DNA of 64,000 nt from [Collinsella] massiliensis (GCA_000333815.1 CAPI01000058.1:1-64000); one strand, 5' to 3'. Positions 3,848-13,918 are shown, numbered from the stretch's first letter. A program made the numbers and translations. Notes: generated from the sequence alone by a model not told the origin.

Positions 3848-5914
3848 GTGGCGGACGGGTGCAAGGGCAAGGGCGGCAAGCTCGCGGCGAGGGTGCAGCA
3901 CCTCGAGAGCGCGTGGACGACGTGGCGCACTGACACACTGTCCAAGCTCTCCGCCAAGCTCTTCTCCGTAATCCCCATCTCCATCTTCTTCATCGTGCTG
4001 TTCTGGATGATCGTGCCGATCTTCGGCATCCGCCACGTGATGCCCGTCTCGTGCTACACAGTCCTCTTCAGGATGCGCTATCGCAAGTACAACCCGCCCA
4101 GCCAGTACCTGCGGTTCTTTACCATGAGCTTCATCGCGCTCGGGGCGGCGCGCGTGGCCACGTTCAATTGGATGACGAGCATCGTGGTGAACATCGTGAT
4201 GTCCTTCGCGTTCGTGTTCATGCGGTCCTCGCAGCTCAATCCCCGCCGCTACATCCCCTATACGATGCTCTTCGTCTTCTTCCAGCTGCGCCCGGAGCTC
4301 CTCGACGACATGGCGCTCGAGGCTGCGCTCGTGGTGGCATGCTGCACGACGCTCTCCGTCGCGATCGCGGTCATGAACATCGCGACCAAAGCTGGCGAGG
4401 CGAACCTGGCCAAGCTGCATGGGATGGTCGAGCGCCTGGCCGATGCGCTCGACCATATGGCGGATATCGGCATCACCGCCGATACGCGGAAGGAGCTGCT
4501 CAGCCTGCGCTCCGATTACTCCAAGCTCGCGTATACGGTGCGCGAGAACGCGAGCGTCCAGCCCGCCGTCGCGAACCTCTATGACATGTTCGCCATGCTC
4601 GCCCAGCGCACGGCGTACCTCGTGGGGCGGCTCGAGTGCCGCGAGCAGCAGACCTGCCCGCACCCGCCCTACCTGCATGAGCTCGCGGGCCTGACGCGTC
4701 AAGCGGGCGGCGTCTTGGATAAGAAGGGCGGCGACGAGGCAGCCGCACGCGCCCAAGCGCTCTTGGCCAAAGCGGATACCATCGACAACGAGCGCTACCG
4801 CCTGTTCTTCCGGAGCTACCTCCATATGATCCTGCTCGTGCTGCGCGACGCGCGCCATCCCCGGAGCCACGCCTGGCGCGTCTCACCGCTTACAAGGCTG
4901 CGCCTCATGTCCTTCCGCAAGCACCTCACCCTCGACTCCTTCGAGCTGCGCTTCGCGGTGCGCTGCGCAGCCGTGCTCGCCATCACGTGCACGACGAGCC
5001 TGCTTTCGCCCGTCAACCACCTGTACTGGTTCCCGCTCACCTCGTTCATGCTCCTGCGGCCCAGCCCGGACGAGACCGTCCGCCGCATGCGCAACCGTAC
5101 CGTGGGCACGGTGCTCGGCTGCCTGGTCGTGCACGGCATCTCGATGCTCAAGCTGCCGCTCGCGGCGGTCATCGTCGTGGACATGCTGTTCGTCGCGGGC
5201 CGGTACATGGGCACGCCGGGGAGCGCGCCCACGTCCTTCTTCGGGACTGCCTACGCGATTTCGATGGCCTCGATGTCCATCGGCGACCACTACGCCATAC
5301 GGATGCGCCTCATCTGCCTCGCGGCGGGCGTGCTGCTCGTGTTCGTGATCAACCGCCTCGTCATGCCCACGAGCGACCGCACGCTCTTCCTCGCGAACGT
5401 GCACGAGGGTTTCGCCCTCATCGCGCGCTACTGGGGGCTGCTGCGCTTCGCCCTGCATGAGCGGGTGGACACGGTGACGTCGAGCGAGGAGCTGCTCCAT
5501 ATCCAGATGATCCATACGCAGGCGATGGCCTACGCGCGGGCGCTGCCCGAGGACACGCCCGCGGAGCGCGAGCAGCGCAAGGACATCGTACGCGTGCTCT
5601 TCTGCCAATGGGGGCTCGTATGCGAGATGGAGCAGCTGAGCTTCCTCATCCGCCTGCACGCGTTCGGCGCGGACACGTGCCCGAAGCTCGAGCAGTTCAT
5701 GCAGGCCGCGCAGGAGAGCTGCGACCCCTTCGTGGTGGACGGGCCGCTCGATGCGGCGAAGGAGCTCGTGGCGGGCATTGCCGAGGAGGACCTGCGCTAC
5801 GTGCTCGAGCAGTACCTCAAGCGCGCGGACACGCTCGCGGTGGCTGCGGCGAAGGTGCCCGAGCTCGTATCCGGGCGGCCTGGCTACCGCGAGGAGGTCG
5901 CCGAGGTGAAGTAG
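3848..5914 (+). CDS. FUSC-family membrane protein, putative exporter
   Basis: 688-residue integral membrane protein. Hydrophobic segments cluster at about residues 38-60, 85-145 and again at 370-500, separated by a long soluble stretch, the two-block architecture of FUSC/aromatic-acid-exporter proteins. The second block contains RCAAVLAITC and WFPLTSFMLLRP, typical of the FUSC_2 region. Start GTG at 3848 is the first possible start after an in-frame stop at 3839; its ribosome site is weak. Substrate unknown; family members export aromatic carboxylates or related toxic compounds. A TetR regulator follows 139 bp downstream and may control it. Confidence 0.75.
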   Translation: MADGCKGKGGKLAARVQHLESAWTTWRTDTLSKLSAKLFSVIPISIFFIVLFWMIVPIFGIRHVMPVSCYTVLFRMRYRKYNPPSQYLRFFTMSFIALGAARVATFNWMTSIVVNIVMSFAFVFMRSSQLNPRRYIPYTMLFVFFQLRPELLDDMALEAALVVACCTTLSVAIAVMNIATKAGEANLAKLHGMVERLADALDHMADIGITADTRKELLSLRSDYSKLAYTVRENASVQPAVANLYDMFAMLAQRTAYLVGRLECREQQTCPHPPYLHELAGLTRQAGGVLDKKGGDEAAARAQALLAKADTIDNERYRLFFRSYLHMILLVLRDARHPRSHAWRVSPLTRLRLMSFRKHLTLDSFELRFAVRCAAVLAITCTTSLLSPVNHLYWFPLTSFMLLRPSPDETVRRMRNRTVGTVLGCLVVHGISMLKLPLAAVIVVDMLFVAGRYMGTPGSAPTSFFGTAYAISMASMSIGDHYAIRMRLICLAAGVLLVFVINRLVMPTSDRTLFLANVHEGFALIARYWGLLRFALHERVDTVTSSEELLHIQMIHTQAMAYARALPEDTPAEREQRKDIVRVLFCQWGLVCEMEQLSFLIRLHAFGADTCPKLEQFMQAAQESCDPFVVDGPLDAAKELVAGIAEEDLRYVLEQYLKRADTLAVAAAKVPELVSGRPGYREEVAEVK

Positions 5915-6053: not shown

Positions 6054-6617
6054 ATGGACAAGGCCGAGACGCGCATGGCGATACGCCACGCGGTGATTGC
6101 CGAGATGCAGACGACGGACATTCCCGATATCAGCATCACGAGCCTGTGCGCCCGTGCAAAGGTGTCGCGCTCGACGTTCTATCGGTACTACGATTCGGTC
6201 GACGCGGTGGTGAAGCAGACCGAGAACGAGCTCATCGAGTCCCTGCGCCGGACATCGCGCTTCGATGCCGCGCCCTTCGCGGCGGGCGACCCAGCACCCT
6301 TGCAGGTGAGCGCGGGCGACCTCTTGCGCGCCGAGATCCTGTACGAGGCTCGCGAGTTCATCGTCGCGGTGACCGGTATCCACGGTGATCCCTCCTTCGC
6401 CACGAAGGCAGCGAACCTCGTCTTCGACAACATTCAAGTGACGCTGAGCCCCCGCTTCTCCGCGCTTCCCAACAGCGACTTCCTCTTTGAGTTCCTCAAG
6501 GCGGGCATGTTCAGCATCGTGAGTCACTGGCTCAACCGCCGCCCCGACCTCACGCCGCAGGAGATGTGCGGGGTCATGGAGGAGTTCTACGCGAACATCC
6601 GCAAGATGCTCTCCTGA
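6054..6617 (+). CDS. TetR/AcrR-family transcriptional regulator
   Basis: 187 residues. The N-terminal helix-turn-helix is at about residues 20-52, with ISITSLCARAKVSRSTFYRY as the recognition region; the rest is a helical ligand/dimerisation domain ending in a Phe/Trp-rich segment. ATG at 6054 follows GGGGGAG. It sits between the FUSC-like exporter and the pta gene in the same orientation, so either could be its target. Ligand unknown. Confidence 0.85.
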   Translation: MDKAETRMAIRHAVIAEMQTTDIPDISITSLCARAKVSRSTFYRYYDSVDAVVKQTENELIESLRRTSRFDAAPFAAGDPAPLQVSAGDLLRAEILYEAREFIVAVTGIHGDPSFATKAANLVFDNIQVTLSPRFSALPNSDFLFEFLKAGMFSIVSHWLNRRPDLTPQEMCGVMEEFYANIRKMLS

Positions 6618-6809: not shown

Positions 6810-7820
6810 GTGGCAGATTTCATGTCAGACATTATCGCGCGGGCGGCGGAGACGCCGCGCCGCATCGGGCTTTCCGAGGTGGAGAGCCCGGACGTGCTGC
6901 GCCTGGCGCAGCGCATCGTGGAGACCGAGATCGGCGTCCCGGTGCTCGTGGGCGACGCCGCCGCATCGCGTGCGGTCGCCGCGGAGGCGGGCGTCTCCAC
7001 CGAGGGCTTCGAGTACGTCGATAACGCCGACGAGGCGGTCGTGAGCGCCATCGTCGAGCGCTACACGGCGGCGTACGACGATTTCTCCCAGAAGGCGTGC
7101 ACGCGCCGGGCGAAGGACAACCTGCTCTGCGCCATGCTCCTGCTCAAGCTCGGCGACGTGGACGGCGTCGCGTCGGGCAAGGAGTGCCCCACGGGCGATG
7201 TCGTCGCAGCCGCCATGGGCATCGTGGGCCTCGCGGAGGGCGTCGCCTCGCCCTCGAGCTTGGGCATCGCCGAGATCCCCGGGTTCGAGGGGCCGCAGGG
7301 GGAGTTCCTCGGCCTCGCCGACTGCGCCATCACCGTGCAGCCGGGCGTCGAGGAGCTCGCGGGCATCGCGATCGCCTCGGCCGACACCGCCGCGACCCTC
7401 CTGGGCTGGGAGCCCCGCGTCGCGCTCCTCTCGTTCTCCACGATGGGCAGCGCGCAGCACGAGTCGCTCGAGACGGTGCGCGCTGCGGTCGAGCGCGTGC
7501 ATGAGCTCCGCCCGGACCTCAAGTGCGACGGCGAGCTCCAGCTCGATGCCGCCATCATGCCCGCGGTGGCGGAGCACAAGGTGAAGCGCCCGAGCGAGGT
7601 CGCCGGGCGGGCGAACATCCTCATCTTCCCCAACCTCCATGCCGGCAACATCGGCGTCAAGCTCGTGCAGATCTTCGGCCATGCGAACGCCTACGGCCCG
7701 GTGCTCCAGGGCTTCGCCAAGCCCGTGTGCGACTTCTCGCGCAGCGCCCCCGTGGACGAGATGCTCGGCAACGTCGCCATGCTCGTCGTGCGCGCGGCGG
7801 CGCAGGAAGCGGGTGAGTAG
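6810..7820 (+). CDS. Phosphate acetyl/butyryltransferase (PTA_PTB family)
   Basis: 336 residues; interconverts acyl-CoA plus phosphate with acyl-phosphate plus CoA. The C-terminal block GRANILIFPNLHAGNIG followed by GPVLQGFAKPVCDFSR is the classic Pta signature, so by sequence it is closer to acetyl- than butyryl-transferases. The next gene, one base downstream, is a butyrate kinase rather than acetate kinase, which argues for a broader or butyryl/branched-chain acyl substrate. Start GTG at 6810 with GGGGAGGA at 6798-6805. Together the pair would make ATP from acyl-CoA. Confidence 0.85.
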   Translation: MADFMSDIIARAAETPRRIGLSEVESPDVLRLAQRIVETEIGVPVLVGDAAASRAVAAEAGVSTEGFEYVDNADEAVVSAIVERYTAAYDDFSQKACTRRAKDNLLCAMLLLKLGDVDGVASGKECPTGDVVAAAMGIVGLAEGVASPSSLGIAEIPGFEGPQGEFLGLADCAITVQPGVEELAGIAIASADTAATLLGWEPRVALLSFSTMGSAQHESLETVRAAVERVHELRPDLKCDGELQLDAAIMPAVAEHKVKRPSEVAGRANILIFPNLHAGNIGVKLVQIFGHANAYGPVLQGFAKPVCDFSRSAPVDEMLGNVAMLVVRAAAQEAGE

Positions 7821-7821
7821 C

Positions 7822-8928
7822 ATGGAGCGGGCATATCGCATCCTGGTCATCAACCCCGGTTCCACCTCCACGAAGGTGGGCGTGTTCGAGGGCGACCGCT
7901 CGGTCTTCACCAAGACCGTCGACCACGACGCCGCCAAGCTGGCGGAGTTCCCGGACGTCTCCTCCCAGCTCCCGTACCGCCGCGAGACGATCCTCGCTGC
8001 GCTCGAGGAGAACGACATCGACCTTGCGACCATCGACGCCTTCGTGGGGCGCGGCGGCGGCCTCATGCCCGTCGAGGGCGGCACCTACGAGGTGAACGAG
8101 ACGATGCTCGAGCACGCGCGCGCCGGCGCGAACGGCGTGCAGCACCCCGCGCAGCTCGGCAGCCAGCTTGCGCACGAGCTCGCGAGCGCCTACGGCAAGC
8201 GGGCGTTCGTGGTCAACCCGCCGGACACGGACGAGCTGTGCGACGAGGCGCGCATGACGGGCATCAAGGGCGTCTACCGCCACGTGCACCTGCATGCGCT
8301 CAACCTCAAGGAGACGGCCATCCGCCATGCGGCCTCCCAGGGGAAGCGCTACGAGGACTGCAACTTCATCGTGTGCCATATCGGCGGCGGCATCTCCATT
8401 TCCGCGCACCGTGCCGGCAAGATGATCGACGGCTACGACATCGTGGGCGGCGAGGGCATGATGGCGCCCACGCGCTGCGGCGGCGTGCCCGTGGTGGAGG
8501 TGCTTGACTACCTCGAGGCCGGCCACAGCGTGGACGAGGTGCGGCGCCTGTGCATGAAGTCGGGCGGGTTCGTGAGCCTGCTCGGCACCTCGGACGCCCG
8601 CGAGGTGACCGCGCGCGCCCAGGCGGGCGACGCGGCGGCCGAGCGCGCGTGGAGCACCATGCTCTACCAGATCACCCGGAGCATCGCCGCGATGGCGGGC
8701 GTGCTCGAGGGGAAGGTCGACGGCATCCTGCTGGGCGGCGGGATGGTGCACGACGCCGGCCTCGTGGCGCACATCGAGCGCACGTGCGGCTGGATCGCCC
8801 CCGTGAGCGCGTATCCGGGCGAGTTCGAGCTCGAGGCCATGGCATCCGGCGCCGTGCGCGTGCTCGCAGGCGAGGAGGAGCCCAAGGTCTACACCGGGGT
8901 GCCGGTGTTCCAGGGCTTCGAGGGGTGA
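7822..8928 (+). CDS. buk: Butyrate kinase
   Basis: 368 residues, acetate/propionate/butyrate kinase superfamily (ASKHA fold). The N-terminal phosphate motif INPGSTSTKVGVFEG, the middle FVGRGGG and the C-terminal LLGGGMVHD blocks are present. It converts acyl-phosphate and ADP to carboxylate and ATP. ATG at 7822 lies one base after the pta stop, so the two are translationally coupled. Substrate range (butyrate, isobutyrate, valerate) cannot be read from sequence. Confidence 0.92.
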   Translation: MERAYRILVINPGSTSTKVGVFEGDRSVFTKTVDHDAAKLAEFPDVSSQLPYRRETILAALEENDIDLATIDAFVGRGGGLMPVEGGTYEVNETMLEHARAGANGVQHPAQLGSQLAHELASAYGKRAFVVNPPDTDELCDEARMTGIKGVYRHVHLHALNLKETAIRHAASQGKRYEDCNFIVCHIGGGISISAHRAGKMIDGYDIVGGEGMMAPTRCGGVPVVEVLDYLEAGHSVDEVRRLCMKSGGFVSLLGTSDAREVTARAQAGDAAAERAWSTMLYQITRSIAAMAGVLEGKVDGILLGGGMVHDAGLVAHIERTCGWIAPVSAYPGEFELEAMASGAVRVLAGEEEPKVYTGVPVFQGFEG

Positions 8929-9106: not shown

Positions 9107-10393
9107 ATGGTACACGGGAAGCTTGGCAAGCTCAGCCGGAGCGTCTCCATCATCGGTGTCGGCGCGACGCCGTTCATGAACATCAACGAGGATCCGGATC
9201 TGCTGGGCCTCACGGAGGGCGATTGCTTCGGCTACGCCGCCCTCAAGGCCATGGAGGACGCCGGCCTCGAGCCGCGCGACGTCGAGTACTTCTATCACGG
9301 CTCCGCGAACCCCAAGATGTTCAACGACGCGGTGACCCCCGCCATGCAGGTGGCCGAGTGGTTCGGCATGCGCGGCCGCGGTTCGGTGCACCACTCCGAG
9401 GCGTGCGCGACCGGCTACGTCGCCCTCGAGCAGGCCGTCATGGCGGTCGCTTCCGGCGCACACGACATCGTGCTCTCCGGCGGCGTGGAGATGGCCACGG
9501 GCCTGCCCGACGGCAAGAAGCCCGCGTGCTTCCGTCGCCCCATGACCACCGAGGACATCTGGCCCGACCTCGACGCCATCATCGACCGCGCCTACACGCG
9601 CTACCTCGGCGGCGGCGCCATCGGCCAGGACGACTGGATCGACGTGTACCGCAAGGAGTACGGCCTCACCGCCGAGCAGGTGGACGACGTGCTCAACATG
9701 ATGTCCTACCAGGGACGCCGCGCCGCGGCGCTCAACCCGCTCGCCCTCGAGCGCGAGCCCTTCGAGGACATCGCCAAGCGCTTCGGCTTCGATGACCCCA
9801 TGGATTACCTGCGCTCGCCGTTCAACCCGCACACCACGCAGTACCTGCGCGTGACCGGCAACGCCCCCAGCGCGGACGGCGCGGCGTGCTTCATCGTCTG
9901 CCCGACCGAGATGGCCAAGCAGTTCAACAAGACCCCCATCGAGGTGCTCGGCGTCTCCGCCTCCTGCCTCGAGAGCGCCCGCCCGCACCTCGAGCGCGAC
10001 GCCACCGCCGAGGCGGCCAAGCAGATCTACGAGCTCACGGGCATCAAGCCCGAGGACATCGACCTGCTCCTCGTGAACGACTTCATCCTCTCCTCGCAGC
10101 TGCTCGCGGCCGAGGAAGTGGGCTACCTGCCGCGCGGCGAGGGCTGGAAGTACGTCATGGAGGGCCGCACCGCCTTCGACGGCGACCGTCCCATCAACAC
10201 GAACGGCGGCCGCACCTCCTATGGCCACGCCTTCGGCGCCTCGGGTGCCGCCGACGTCTACGAGGCCGTCATCCAGATGCGCGGCGAGGCTGGCGCGCAC
10301 CAGGTCAAGAAGCTTCCGAAGACCGCCATGCTGCGCGGCTTCGGCGGCGGCCAGAACGTCCGCATCGCTGTCCTCCGCACCGTCGACGAGTAA
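9107..10393 (+). CDS. SCP2-type thiolase-like enzyme
   Basis: 428 residues. The thiolase nucleophile region is EACATGY with Cys100; the late active-site His lies in SYGHAFGASG. The canonical second catalytic Cys motif (CxGGGQG) is replaced by GFGGGQNV, as in SCP2/Ltp2-type homologues. Family members with an adjacent DUF35 gene act as thiolases, aldolases or acyltransferases in complex with it; that pairing is present here 15 bp downstream. ATG at 9107 has GGAAGG upstream. The acyl carrier protein two genes on suggests an ACP- or CoA-bound acyl substrate. Exact reaction unknown. Confidence 0.85.
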   Translation: MVHGKLGKLSRSVSIIGVGATPFMNINEDPDLLGLTEGDCFGYAALKAMEDAGLEPRDVEYFYHGSANPKMFNDAVTPAMQVAEWFGMRGRGSVHHSEACATGYVALEQAVMAVASGAHDIVLSGGVEMATGLPDGKKPACFRRPMTTEDIWPDLDAIIDRAYTRYLGGGAIGQDDWIDVYRKEYGLTAEQVDDVLNMMSYQGRRAAALNPLALEREPFEDIAKRFGFDDPMDYLRSPFNPHTTQYLRVTGNAPSADGAACFIVCPTEMAKQFNKTPIEVLGVSASCLESARPHLERDATAEAAKQIYELTGIKPEDIDLLLVNDFILSSQLLAAEEVGYLPRGEGWKYVMEGRTAFDGDRPINTNGGRTSYGHAFGASGAADVYEAVIQMRGEAGAHQVKKLPKTAMLRGFGGGQNVRIAVLRTVDE

Positions 10394-10408
10394 AGGAGTG
10401 TTGTACAA

Positions 10409-10825
10409 ATGGCGCTTACGCTTGAACGCAACGTCCTCAAGTTCTACCAGGGGCTTGAGCAGGGCATCATCTATGGCCGCAAGTGCACCGAGTGCGGTGC
10501 CGTGGAGTTCCCGCCGCATTACGCGTGCAACGAGTGCGGCTATCACGAGACGGAGTGGGTCGAGCTTTCCGGCAAGGGCGTGCTCAAGAGCGTGATCCTT
10601 CCCGTGTCGCTCAACGCCGACAACAAGCTCGCCGCCATCGGCGACTACTGCTTCGGCATCGTCCAGCTCGAGGAGGGCTGCGAGTTCAACTCCACGATCT
10701 TCGGCGTGAATGCCGAGAACGCGGACGCCATCCGCGCGAAGCTCCCCGTGCCCGTGCATGCGAAGTTCGTGCCCATGGACGGCTACACGACGCTCCTCTT
10801 CGAGGTCGACAAGGACGCGCTGTAA
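10409..10825 (+). CDS. DUF35 OB-fold / zinc-ribbon protein, thiolase partner
   Basis: 138 residues. An N-terminal rubredoxin-like zinc ribbon (C26xxC29 and C40xxC43) precedes an OB-fold beginning near ELSGKGVLKS. DUF35 proteins form obligate complexes with SCP2-type thiolase-like enzymes in archaeal mevalonate synthesis, sterol side-chain cleavage and phloroglucinol acylation. The immediately preceding gene is such an enzyme, so a complex is expected. ATG at 10409 with AAAGGAG at 10393-10399. Confidence 0.88.
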   Translation: MALTLERNVLKFYQGLEQGIIYGRKCTECGAVEFPPHYACNECGYHETEWVELSGKGVLKSVILPVSLNADNKLAAIGDYCFGIVQLEEGCEFNSTIFGVNAENADAIRAKLPVPVHAKFVPMDGYTTLLFEVDKDAL

Positions 10826-10955
10826 GCCTTCGGCCCCACCGATCACCCCGTTGCGCGGGGGCGCGTCCCGTCTCCTCTCGCACCCCCGCGCCCATCTCGC
10901 GGCAGCGTTGCCGCACCGACCACATCGCAAACCTTCTTCCAGATAGGAGTACATC

Positions 10956-11198
10956 ATGACCAAGGACGAGATCATCGCCAAGCTCATCGAGGACGCCGCC
11001 ATCGTCTACAAGGCCGACGCCTCCACGCTCGCCGCCGACACCGACATCTCCGCGACCCTCGGCACCAACTCGCTCAACCGCATGGGCATGTGCGCCATGA
11101 TCGAGAATCACTTCGACGTGGTGATCCCGCTCGCCGAGTTCGGCACGTACAAGACGTTCCAGGACCTCGCCGACATGATCGCCGAGCAGGACGCGTAA
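10956..11198 (+). CDS. Acyl carrier protein
   Basis: 80 residues, acidic and helical, with the phosphopantetheine attachment Ser39 in GTNSLNRM (the usual DSL is NSL here). ATG at 10956 follows AGGAG at 10945-10949. It is not in a fatty-acid synthesis operon; it follows the thiolase/DUF35 pair after a 130-bp gap and precedes an MFS transporter by 25 bp. This suggests a dedicated carrier for the local acyl pathway. A phosphopantetheinyl transferase is not encoded nearby. Confidence 0.88.
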   Translation: MTKDEIIAKLIEDAAIVYKADASTLAADTDISATLGTNSLNRMGMCAMIENHFDVVIPLAEFGTYKTFQDLADMIAEQDA

Positions 11199-11223
11199 GC
11201 GCGCGTTTTCGAAAGGGACTACC

Positions 11224-12423
11224 ATGGCTCTCAAGATCTCGAAGGAGCAGGTCCGCGCGCTCGTGGGCTTCTACTCCGGCACGTTCACCATCATGAGCAT
11301 CCTCGTCCCGGTGCCGATCCTCGGCGCCGTGGCCCAGGCGTTCCCCGACACGCCCGCCATGCTCATCCAGATGCTCGTCTCCTGCTCGTCGTTCGCCGCC
11401 ATTGCGGGCAGCTTCGTGTTCGCCCGCCTCGCGCGCTACATGTACCGCCGCACGGGCATGCTCATCTCCACGGCGATCTACCTCGTGGGCCTGCTGCCCG
11501 TCGCGTTCCATGACAGCATCTACCCGGCGCTCTTCGCCGCCATCGCCGTCGGCTTCGCCATGGGCGGCGTGCAGAACACCGTCGGCGCCATGATCACCGA
11601 CTACTTCGAGGGCGACTCGCGCGGCCTGCTCTTCGGCCTGTGCTCGGTGTTCGTCGGCCTCGGCGGCACGCTCTACACCATGGTGGCCGGGCGCCTGGGC
11701 GCCGAGAACTGGTGGATGGCTTACTACACCTATCTCATCATCGCGGTCGTGCTCGTGGTCATGTTCATCGTCCTGCCCAAGGGCAAGAAGGAGGTCGCCG
11801 AGACCGGTAAGACCCAGCGCGCCCGCATCCCGCGCGAGGTCATCGTCGTCTCCCTCATGGTGTTCTTCTACTTCTCCTGCAACCAGGTTTTCAGCAACAA
11901 CATCTCGATGTTCCTGGCTCAGACCGGCTTGGGCGACACGGTCATGTCCGGTAACGTCTCGTCGGTCAACACGCTCGTGGGCGCCATCGGCGGCCTGCTC
12001 GTGATCCCCGTGCACCGTCTCTTCAAGCGCCAGACGCTCACGGTGAACGCCATCCTCGGCGCCATCGGCGCGGTGCTCATCTTCACCGCGGGCAGCATCA
12101 TGCCCGTCTTCGCCGGCGCGTTCGCGATGTCGTTCGCCTATGCCGTGTACAACGCGATCAGCTCGCAGTACGTCTCCGAGGCGTCCGACACCGTGGGCAT
12201 GGCGTTCAACCTCGCCATCCTGAACTCCTCCGGCTCGCTCGGCAATTTCTTCTCGCCCATGATGATCGGCGGCGTGGCGGGCGCCTTCGGTGGCACCGCG
12301 GCCGATTCCTTCATGGTGTGCGCTGGGCTCGCCGCGATCGTCGGTGTTGTCTCTGCCGTGTACTTTGCTAAGGTGAAGAGCCCCAAGGCTGCTTCCACCG
12401 AGACCGAGGTTCAGGCCGGATAG
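11224..12423 (+). CDS. MFS transporter
   Basis: 399 residues with about 12 hydrophobic segments and a central basic loop near PKGKKEVAE (around residue 180-200). ATG at 11224 follows GAAAGGGA. It is the fifth gene of the thiolase/DUF35/ACP cluster and ends in front of a strong terminator, so it likely moves the pathway's substrate or product. Substrate not predictable. Confidence 0.85.
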   Translation: MALKISKEQVRALVGFYSGTFTIMSILVPVPILGAVAQAFPDTPAMLIQMLVSCSSFAAIAGSFVFARLARYMYRRTGMLISTAIYLVGLLPVAFHDSIYPALFAAIAVGFAMGGVQNTVGAMITDYFEGDSRGLLFGLCSVFVGLGGTLYTMVAGRLGAENWWMAYYTYLIIAVVLVVMFIVLPKGKKEVAETGKTQRARIPREVIVVSLMVFFYFSCNQVFSNNISMFLAQTGLGDTVMSGNVSSVNTLVGAIGGLLVIPVHRLFKRQTLTVNAILGAIGAVLIFTAGSIMPVFAGAFAMSFAYAVYNAISSQYVSEASDTVGMAFNLAILNSSGSLGNFFSPMMIGGVAGAFGGTAADSFMVCAGLAAIVGVVSAVYFAKVKSPKAASTETEVQAG

Positions 12424-12462
12424 GCTGTGAGCTGCGCAAATGGTACGCTAATGTGAAATAAG

Positions 12463-12500
12463 AGTCGGCGGGGGTACATGCATGCCCCGCCGACTTTTTT
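12463..12500 (+). terminator. Rho-independent terminator after the first MFS gene
   Basis: An 11-bp perfect stem AGTCGGCGGGG/CCCCGCCGACT is followed by six T residues. It ends the thiolase/DUF35/ACP/MFS unit. The next gene begins only 21 bp after it. Confidence 0.9.
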
Positions 12501-12520: not shown

Positions 12521-13918
12521 ATGGATGCACAGAACAAGCCGGCTGTCACCTATCGCTACTGGCGCGCCTGGCCGCTCATCCTCTGCTCACTCATGTGCTA
12601 CGTCCTCACCGGCGTGGTGTCGAGCATCGTGAACGTGGCCTCCGTGCTCTTCGAGGCGGACCGCGGCTGGGATGCCGCGCTGCTCACGGGCGGGATGTCC
12701 GTCGCGTCGTTCATCAACGTCGTTACCGGCTACATCGCCGGGCGCATGGCGTCGCGCCGCTCGGCCAAGCCGGTCTGCATCGCCTGGGGCGTGATGTTCA
12801 TCGCCGGCGTGCTCGCCATGGGTATATCGACGCAGGTGGGCGTGTTCGTGGTGGCAATGTGCCTCGCGAACGCCGCCGCGTCCGCGTGGGGCTACAACAC
12901 CATGCCCGTGCCCATCACGCGATGGTTCCCCACCCGCAAGGGGACGGTGCAGGGCTTCGCGTCCATGGGCATCTTGCTGGGGTCCGTGTCCTCGATGGTG
13001 TATACCTGGGCGTATCGCACCCTGGGGCCCGCGCTCTCCACGGTGCCGTTCGTGGTCTTCGCGCTCGTGGCGCTCGTGCTGCTCATGGCGCTCATCTCCG
13101 ACTGGCCGGAGCAGCGCGGGTTCGCGCCCGACACGATGGAGCGCTGCGCGCCGGTGGCGGATCCCGCGAGCGCGGAGCTTGCGGAGGATGCGGAGCTGGC
13201 GGCGGAGGCGGGCGCGACGGAAGCTGCGGAGGCGGGCGCGCCTGCCGCGACGGCGGAGCTCGAGGAGGCGGACGCCGCACGGCACGCCCCCGCGGCGAGC
13301 GAGATCAGGCGCTTCTTCGCGAACCCCGTGTTCGTGCTGCTCACCATCGTGCTCGGCCTGCAGCTCGTGTTCTCCGGCGGCATCATGGTGCAGCTCGTGC
13401 CGCGGCTCATCGAGGTGGGCTTCACGCTCGACCAGAGCACGCTCATCATGACGTTCACGTCGTTCCTCGCCTGCGCGGGCAGCTTCGGGGCGGGCATCAT
13501 CGGCGACCGCTTCGGCGCGAAGGCGGGCGTGGTGCTCACGTTCATCCTGGGCGCGGTCGGCGTCGTGCTCAACCTCGTGCCCAACGAGGCCGTCGCCATC
13601 CTCGGCGTGGTCTGCATCGGCTGCGTGGTGGGCAGCGCGGACAACTGGCCGGTCAACATCTGCGCCGAGCTCTTCGACCGCAGGATGTTCTCCCAGGTGT
13701 TCGGCGTGATGTTCCCCACGATCCAGCTGGTGGGGGCGATAGGTCCCGCGCTCGTCGCGCAAGTGGCGCAGGCCTTCGGCGGCTACCAAGCGGCGTACGT
13801 GCTGCTTGCCGTGCTCATGGTGGTCGGCGCGGTCGCGTTCCCGCCGCTCATGCGAATCGTCCAGAACCGCGCGTGCGCGGATAACCCGCGGCGCGATGTA
13901 AAAACACCCCAGGGGTAA
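12521..13918 (+). CDS. MFS transporter, OFA/oxalate-formate antiporter-like
   Basis: 465 residues, 12 predicted membrane segments with a long Glu/Ala-rich central loop (about residues 195-265). The segment ITRWFPTRKGTVQGFASMG is typical of monocarboxylate MFS carriers of the OFA type. ATG at 12521 is preferred over TTG 12503. Neither has a Shine-Dalgarno and the terminator of the previous gene ends at 12500, so the mRNA may be leaderless or depend on read-through. The last codons and stop lie inside a dispersed palindrome (13896-13926), which therefore encodes the C-terminal tail. Confidence 0.8.
   Translation: MDAQNKPAVTYRYWRAWPLILCSLMCYVLTGVVSSIVNVASVLFEADRGWDAALLTGGMSVASFINVVTGYIAGRMASRRSAKPVCIAWGVMFIAGVLAMGISTQVGVFVVAMCLANAAASAWGYNTMPVPITRWFPTRKGTVQGFASMGILLGSVSSMVYTWAYRTLGPALSTVPFVVFALVALVLLMALISDWPEQRGFAPDTMERCAPVADPASAELAEDAELAAEAGATEAAEAGAPAATAELEEADAARHAPAASEIRRFFANPVFVLLTIVLGLQLVFSGGIMVQLVPRLIEVGFTLDQSTLIMTFTSFLACAGSFGAGIIGDRFGAKAGVVLTFILGAVGVVLNLVPNEAVAILGVVCIGCVVGSADNWPVNICAELFDRRMFSQVFGVMFPTIQLVGAIGPALVAQVAQAFGGYQAAYVLLAVLMVVGAVAFPPLMRIVQNRACADNPRRDVKTPQG

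Follow-up and report, generated by a model that had tools for sequence, protein, structure and literature searches.

Does the run of thiolase-like, DUF35, acyl carrier protein (ACP), and transporter genes in [Collinsella] massiliensis encode a single pathway, and if so, does that pathway make or break its acyl product? We addressed this question in a stretch of 64,000 nucleotides (GCA_000333815.1 CAPI01000058.1:1-64000, hereafter the window), assigning its proteins to families with Pfam and NCBIfam profile searches.

Gene content and layout of the cassette

Four intact, colinear open reading frames occupy plus-strand positions 9107-12423, and the family profiles bear out the cassette that a first-pass annotation had read there. 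They encode an SCP2-type thiolase-like acyltransferase (THL; 9107-10393, 428 aa; Thiolase_C_1, PF22691, 110.9 bits against a cut-off of 28), a DUF35/ChsH2 zinc-ribbon OB-fold partner (10409-10825, 138 aa; zf-ChsH2, 28.6 bits, cut-off 23.2, with the OB part below threshold), an ACP with a phosphopantetheine site at Ser39 (10956-11198, 80 aa; PP-binding, PF00550, 37.7 bits, cut-off 20.8), and an MFS transporter (11224-12423, 399 aa; MFS_1, 109 bits), with successive gaps of 15, 130, and 25 bp. Upstream on the same strand, a single base separates the genes for a phosphotransacylase of the Pta/EutD-like subfamily (PTA; 6810-7820; PF01515 (PTA_PTB), 284 bits; PRK09653, 263 bits) and a butyrate-kinase-family acyl kinase (BUK; 7822-8928; TIGR02707, 374 bits, above the curated butyrate kinase cut-off of 289). 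A TetR-family regulator (TetR_C_8; 6054-6617, plus strand; PF14278, 33.5 bits) precedes them, and directly 5' of its gene lies one for a FUSC-family membrane protein of the aromatic acid efflux type (3848-5914).

The operon ends at an intrinsic terminator, a hairpin with a T run (12460-12498, plus strand; MFE -28 kcal/mol, z -4.15); since this terminator is strong, a second MFS gene beyond it (12524-13918) probably lies outside the operon. A search of the whole window against Rfam returned zero matches, and a promoter scan yielded no more than chance. The cassette's own MFS protein had been taken for an exporter. The MFS assignment holds, but export of a product does not follow, as the similarities are weak and the matched families are symporters, so that import is equally possible.

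Conservation and co-occurrence

The THL family is present in 32 of 300 Coriobacteriia genomes, spanning 14 of 125 genera and three families, and was also found in some Clostridia (including 3 of 394 Oscillospirales genomes). Across the 34 neighbourhoods compared, the order TetR-THL-DUF35-ACP-PTA-BUK, with or without a following MFS gene, recurs with minor variations; TetR homologues with 30-40% identity lie 5' of THL in many cassettes, and MFS genes 30-35% identical to that of the window close cassettes at other loci. BUK occurs in every THL-positive Coriobacteriia genome (32/32) as against 16 of the 268 without THL (Fisher p 2e-31), and the association persists by genus (14/14 versus 9/111, p 7e-13), a count that removes relatedness incompletely. 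All five clostridial THL-positive genomes likewise encode BUK. Even where pta-buk is not adjacent to the THL cassette (G1022, G1087, and G1008), BUK is found elsewhere in the genome.

One could suppose that a fatty-acid ACP has simply come to lie among unrelated thiolase, kinase, and transporter genes, and THL was indeed found only in [Collinsella] massiliensis among five congeners searched, and in 7 of 67 genomes of its family. We give chance adjacency almost no credence and reject it: because it is kept in three Coriobacteriia families and Clostridia, the linkage is not accidental, and an order retained across many genera, gene fusions, the THL-BUK association, and the location of the fatty acid synthesis ACPs elsewhere in the genome all speak against it. 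THL, DUF35, and ACP with PTA and BUK are a real functional unit, and pta-buk is a component of the THL system beyond mere adjacency. A link to pta-buk, only hinted at by the first-pass annotation, is thus supported by conserved cassettes and BUK co-occurrence, and the triad, whose confinement to one strain that annotation had named as refuting its reading, is conserved well outside it.

The window copy itself looks chimeric. Its THL (74% identity) and ACP (52%) are nearest to those of rumen Oscillospiraceae/Ruminococcaceae metagenome-assembled genomes, and in the tree this THL falls outside the coriobacterial clade, whereas its BUK is nearest to coriobacterial cassettes (63-77% identity to their BUKs, 77% to the nearest). 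Together with the gene order, which is unusual among cassettes in having pta-buk first, this points to an imported triad placed beside a coriobacterial energy pair.

The thiolase-like enzyme and its DUF35 partner

The predicted structure of THL (pLDDT 83.6, pTM 0.89) retrieved thiolase-DUF35 enzymes as its top Foldseek matches (E 8e-31), and fold and family profile together place the protein in the SCP2-type thiolase/thiolase-DUF35 superfamily. We aligned 32 family members with PhlC (a reference sequence identical to PDB 5M3K), archaeal acetoacetyl-CoA thiolase, BbsB, and SCP2 thiolase. The thiolase nucleophile Cys100 and the GH-motif histidine His374 are invariant (32/32). In place of the HDCF motif of SCP2-type CoA thiolases, THL has N324-D325-F326, with Asn in 31 of 32 members. 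A further invariant residue, His64, aligns with PhlC His56 at a position where CoA thiolases carry Ile or Val. Three other PhlC residues, Tyr298, Ser349, and Asp352, are replaced in the family by Asn, Phe/His, and Ser, respectively, so the chemistry of THL is not identical to that of PhlC, a point against the reaction proposed below. A distant thiolase-DUF35 pair (L005:876-2623) apparently serves another pathway; its neighbours are an FdrA-like protein and a cyclase-family hydrolase.

In the DUF35 protein, the four cysteines of the C4 zinc ribbon (Cys26, 29, 40, and 43) are invariant in 22 of 22 homologues. Foldseek matched its AlphaFold model (pLDDT 92.7) significantly (E down to 3e-9) to DUF35 proteins and the related Trf only, and the model resembles the DUF35 partners of known thiolase/aldolase complexes. 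These matches settle, at the level of a predicted fold, the OB part that was sub-threshold in Pfam, and the protein thus combines zinc ribbon and OB fold as a DUF35 partner would.

A dedicated ACP and a second PTA-BUK pair

The window ACP has the PP-binding fold and a modifiable serine, Ser39, which all 27 homologues share; in the family alignment, the serine is not preceded by Asp. It scores at most 27 bits against AcpP equivalog profiles (cut-offs 66-84), and the genome encodes two further PP-binding proteins, one by FabK/FabD and one by rnc, the fatty-acid-synthesis-linked ACP being located on another contig. We therefore reject a fatty acid synthesis identity for this ACP, an identity that the first-pass annotation had named as fatal to its reading. 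DUF35 is fused to PP-binding (ACP) domains in four genomes—to one at L080 and to two at L024, L030, and L031—and phosphopantetheinyl transferases lie beside or within several cassettes, Sfp-like at L004, L015, L016, and L017 and AcpS-like at L014, L030, and L031. As these fusions and neighbours support, the ACP is dedicated to the THL cassette and is the third of its genome; with the conserved triad, they also uphold the earlier suggestion that thiolase and DUF35 perform ACP-linked acyl chemistry.

The acyl kinase pair is likewise an extra copy, since a housekeeping Pta (412 bits) and acetate kinase AckA are encoded on other contigs; the cassette pta-buk is a second, dedicated pair. PTA is conserved among homologous cassettes. 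It falls below the cut-offs for both phosphate acetyltransferase (TIGR00651; 237 bits, cut-off 311) and phosphate butyryltransferase (TIGR02706; 68 bits, cut-off 410), and is, judged by its profile scores, a PTA_PTB member with no equivalog-level specificity assignment.

Cassette variants and neighbouring modules

One locus (L029:2335-8303) reads THL-DUF35-Ptb-Buk-MFS, with no ACP and with a phosphate-butyryltransferase-like enzyme beside Buk. We regard it as a natural CoA-type counterpart, built on the same logic with another phosphotransacylase and carrier. In another operon, a CocE/NonD hydrolase stands with ACP, PTA, BUK, and MFS genes (L092:4448-10208, L093:11947-17846, and L094:6580-13806, the last with AcpS); in several Coriobacteriia, 7-26 kb separate this operon from the thiolase cassette, and CocE-ACP pairs occur in seven further loci. 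A hydrolase in the slot of THL argues for breakdown over synthesis. One CocE-type ACP copy (L091:4452-4706) has lost the phosphopantetheine serine (GMTLLQT).

In operons of the clostridial type, genes for a fumarate-reductase-like flavoprotein, a ferredoxin, and an [FeFe]-hydrogenase join the set. At L030:447-13293 and L080:3028-11273, these three accompany THL, a DUF35-ACP fusion, PTA, and BUK, and the L030 operon additionally encodes AcpS and an acyl-ACP thioesterase; the THLs of these two loci are close kin in different phyla, which suggests transfer. Elsewhere (L072:293-5149, L014:12218-17072, and L093:3855-8750), a flavoprotein with NuoG/GltD-like and NuoF-like Fe-S proteins lies beside the cassette. 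The best NCBIfam match of this flavoprotein is vinyl phenol reductase, below cut-off, and the set may act on the same substrate as the cassette. We set aside guesses at the substrate drawn from the vinylphenol-reductase-like flavoprotein or CocE, which occur in some genera only and are absent near the window cassette; our main claim rests elsewhere.

Proposed reaction and alternatives

From these patterns we infer a reaction, its direction, the use of ACP by PTA, and a type of substrate. We propose, with a confidence close to evenly balanced, that the cassette works catabolically, as an acyl-capture module in which retro-Claisen cleavage would deliver an acyl group to ACP and PTA and BUK would convert it to ATP. 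A beta-dicarbonyl or C-acyl substrate, probably imported by the MFS protein, would be attacked at its ketone by Cys100 of THL, and cleavage of the C-C bond would leave the acyl group on that cysteine. DUF35, bound to THL, would dock holo-ACP, whose phosphopantetheine thiol would replace CoA as the acyl acceptor. PTA would then turn acyl-ACP into acyl-phosphate, presumably taking ACP rather than CoA as its substrate, and BUK would use this to phosphorylate ADP, yielding ATP along with a short acid. More tentatively, and with somewhat less than even confidence, we describe the whole as ACP-dependent phosphoroclastic C-C cleavage by a CoA-free THL/DUF35 enzyme, with acyl transfer to a dedicated ACP, ATP formation by a specialised PTA and BUK, and the CocE operon as a second branch. 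As a guess, a polyphenol, a beta-diketone, or a C-acyl type compound would fit as substrate.

We saw no acyl-CoA ligase or beta-oxidation enzyme in the cassettes examined, so either a free acid must be activated by BUK and PTA, or the thioester comes from C-C cleavage; their absence favours a thioester made by the cleavage itself. Pta/Ack-type pairs work reversibly, however, and this gene set could instead serve synthesis by activating an acid, which counts against the catabolic reading. BUK and PTA would in that case spend ATP to convert the acid through acyl-phosphate to acyl-ACP, THL-DUF35 would perform a Claisen or Friedel-Crafts C-acylation, and the MFS protein would export the product. 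This would agree with the closest CoA-independent relatives, PhlABC and MucABC, which are biosynthetic C-acyltransferases, and with the muc cluster, which likewise holds TetR and MFS genes. We nonetheless consider synthesis unlikely: the cassettes examined lack genes for assembly lines, tailoring, or any other biosynthetic step, the PhlA/MucA-type subunit is absent, and such neighbours as occur encode redox enzymes of fermentation and a CocE hydrolase that has an ACP-PTA-BUK set of its own.

A different objection concerns the carrier. THL could be an ordinary SCP2/DUF35 thiolase acting on a beta-ketoacyl-CoA in CoA thiolysis or beta-oxidation, with PTA and BUK harvesting the acyl-CoA and ACP in a side role, given that the nearest structures are archaeal acetoacetyl-CoA thiolase and BbsAB and that L029 operates without any ACP. 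Yet ACP is almost always present and in four genomes fused to DUF35, phosphopantetheinyl transferases accompany cassettes, the conserved genes of the cassette include no CoA ligase, dehydrogenase, or hydratase, and THL has His64 and Asn324 where CoA thiolases have Ile/Val and His. CoA thiolysis accordingly seems to us rather improbable. The catabolic, ACP-based capture of an acyl group remains our preferred account.

Comparison with known systems

The protein families are each known, and their combination is apparently undescribed: in open-access full texts, we found no published description of THL with DUF35, ACP, PTA, and BUK, of the DUF35-ACP fusions, or of the CocE module. In the textbook view, fermenters that conserve energy from acyl thioesters do so with CoA as the carrier. 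If our proposal is correct, a dedicated carrier protein would take that role in a novel arrangement, with parallels in the ACPs that serve citrate lyase and malonate decarboxylase. The proposal would also assign a role to genes found together in roughly one in ten of the genomes sampled from the Coriobacteriia, which are common in the gut, and would point to an undescribed substrate fermented by these bacteria.

The nearest CoA-independent parallel is PhlABC (as well as MucABC and CsATase), in which the thiolase-fold PhlC forms a covalent acyl-enzyme at Cys88 and, like THL, is paired with a DUF35 protein (PhlB). PhlC His56, Cys88, and His347 align with the invariant THL His64, Cys100, and His374, and His56 is essential and binds a phloroglucinol hydroxyl (PMC6392133). 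Identity between THL and PhlABC-type relatives is, however, about 21-22%, and the KAS III-like PhlA is absent from the window and the homologous cassettes examined, which have ACP and PTA-BUK instead. The missing PhlA and the changes at Tyr298, Ser349, and Asp352 exclude direct membership, and we retain PhlABC as a working analogy.

Anaerobic phloroglucinol degradation in Clostridium scatologenes also feeds the products of a retro-Claisen cleavage to acetate and butyrate kinases (PMC10470551). The cluster, in the portion of that account available to us, comprises DPGC, TAL (BKACE family), and a CoA thiolase, and DUF35 and ACP are not described there; with different enzymes on this description, we rule the pathway out as the identity of the cassette.

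Among CoA-based systems, the archaeal acetoacetyl-CoA thiolase/DUF35/HMG-CoA synthase complex (6ESQ) shares the thiolase and DUF35 architecture, the Cys nucleophile, and the GH motif, but has HMG-CoA synthase as partner, HDCF where THL has NDF, and no ACP. Benzoylsuccinyl-CoA thiolase BbsAB (7PXP), a C-C-cleaving thiolase with DUF35, is among the best structural relatives of THL; it performs CoA thiolysis in toluene degradation, and THL reaches 128 bits against its curated cut-off of 750. Finally, substrate-level phosphorylation by Ptb-Buk and Pta-Ack employs homologous enzymes to pass from acyl thioester through acyl phosphate to ATP; those pairs are normally CoA-linked, whereas the cassette pair is tied to a dedicated ACP and THL, in a genome that has a separate housekeeping Pta and AckA.
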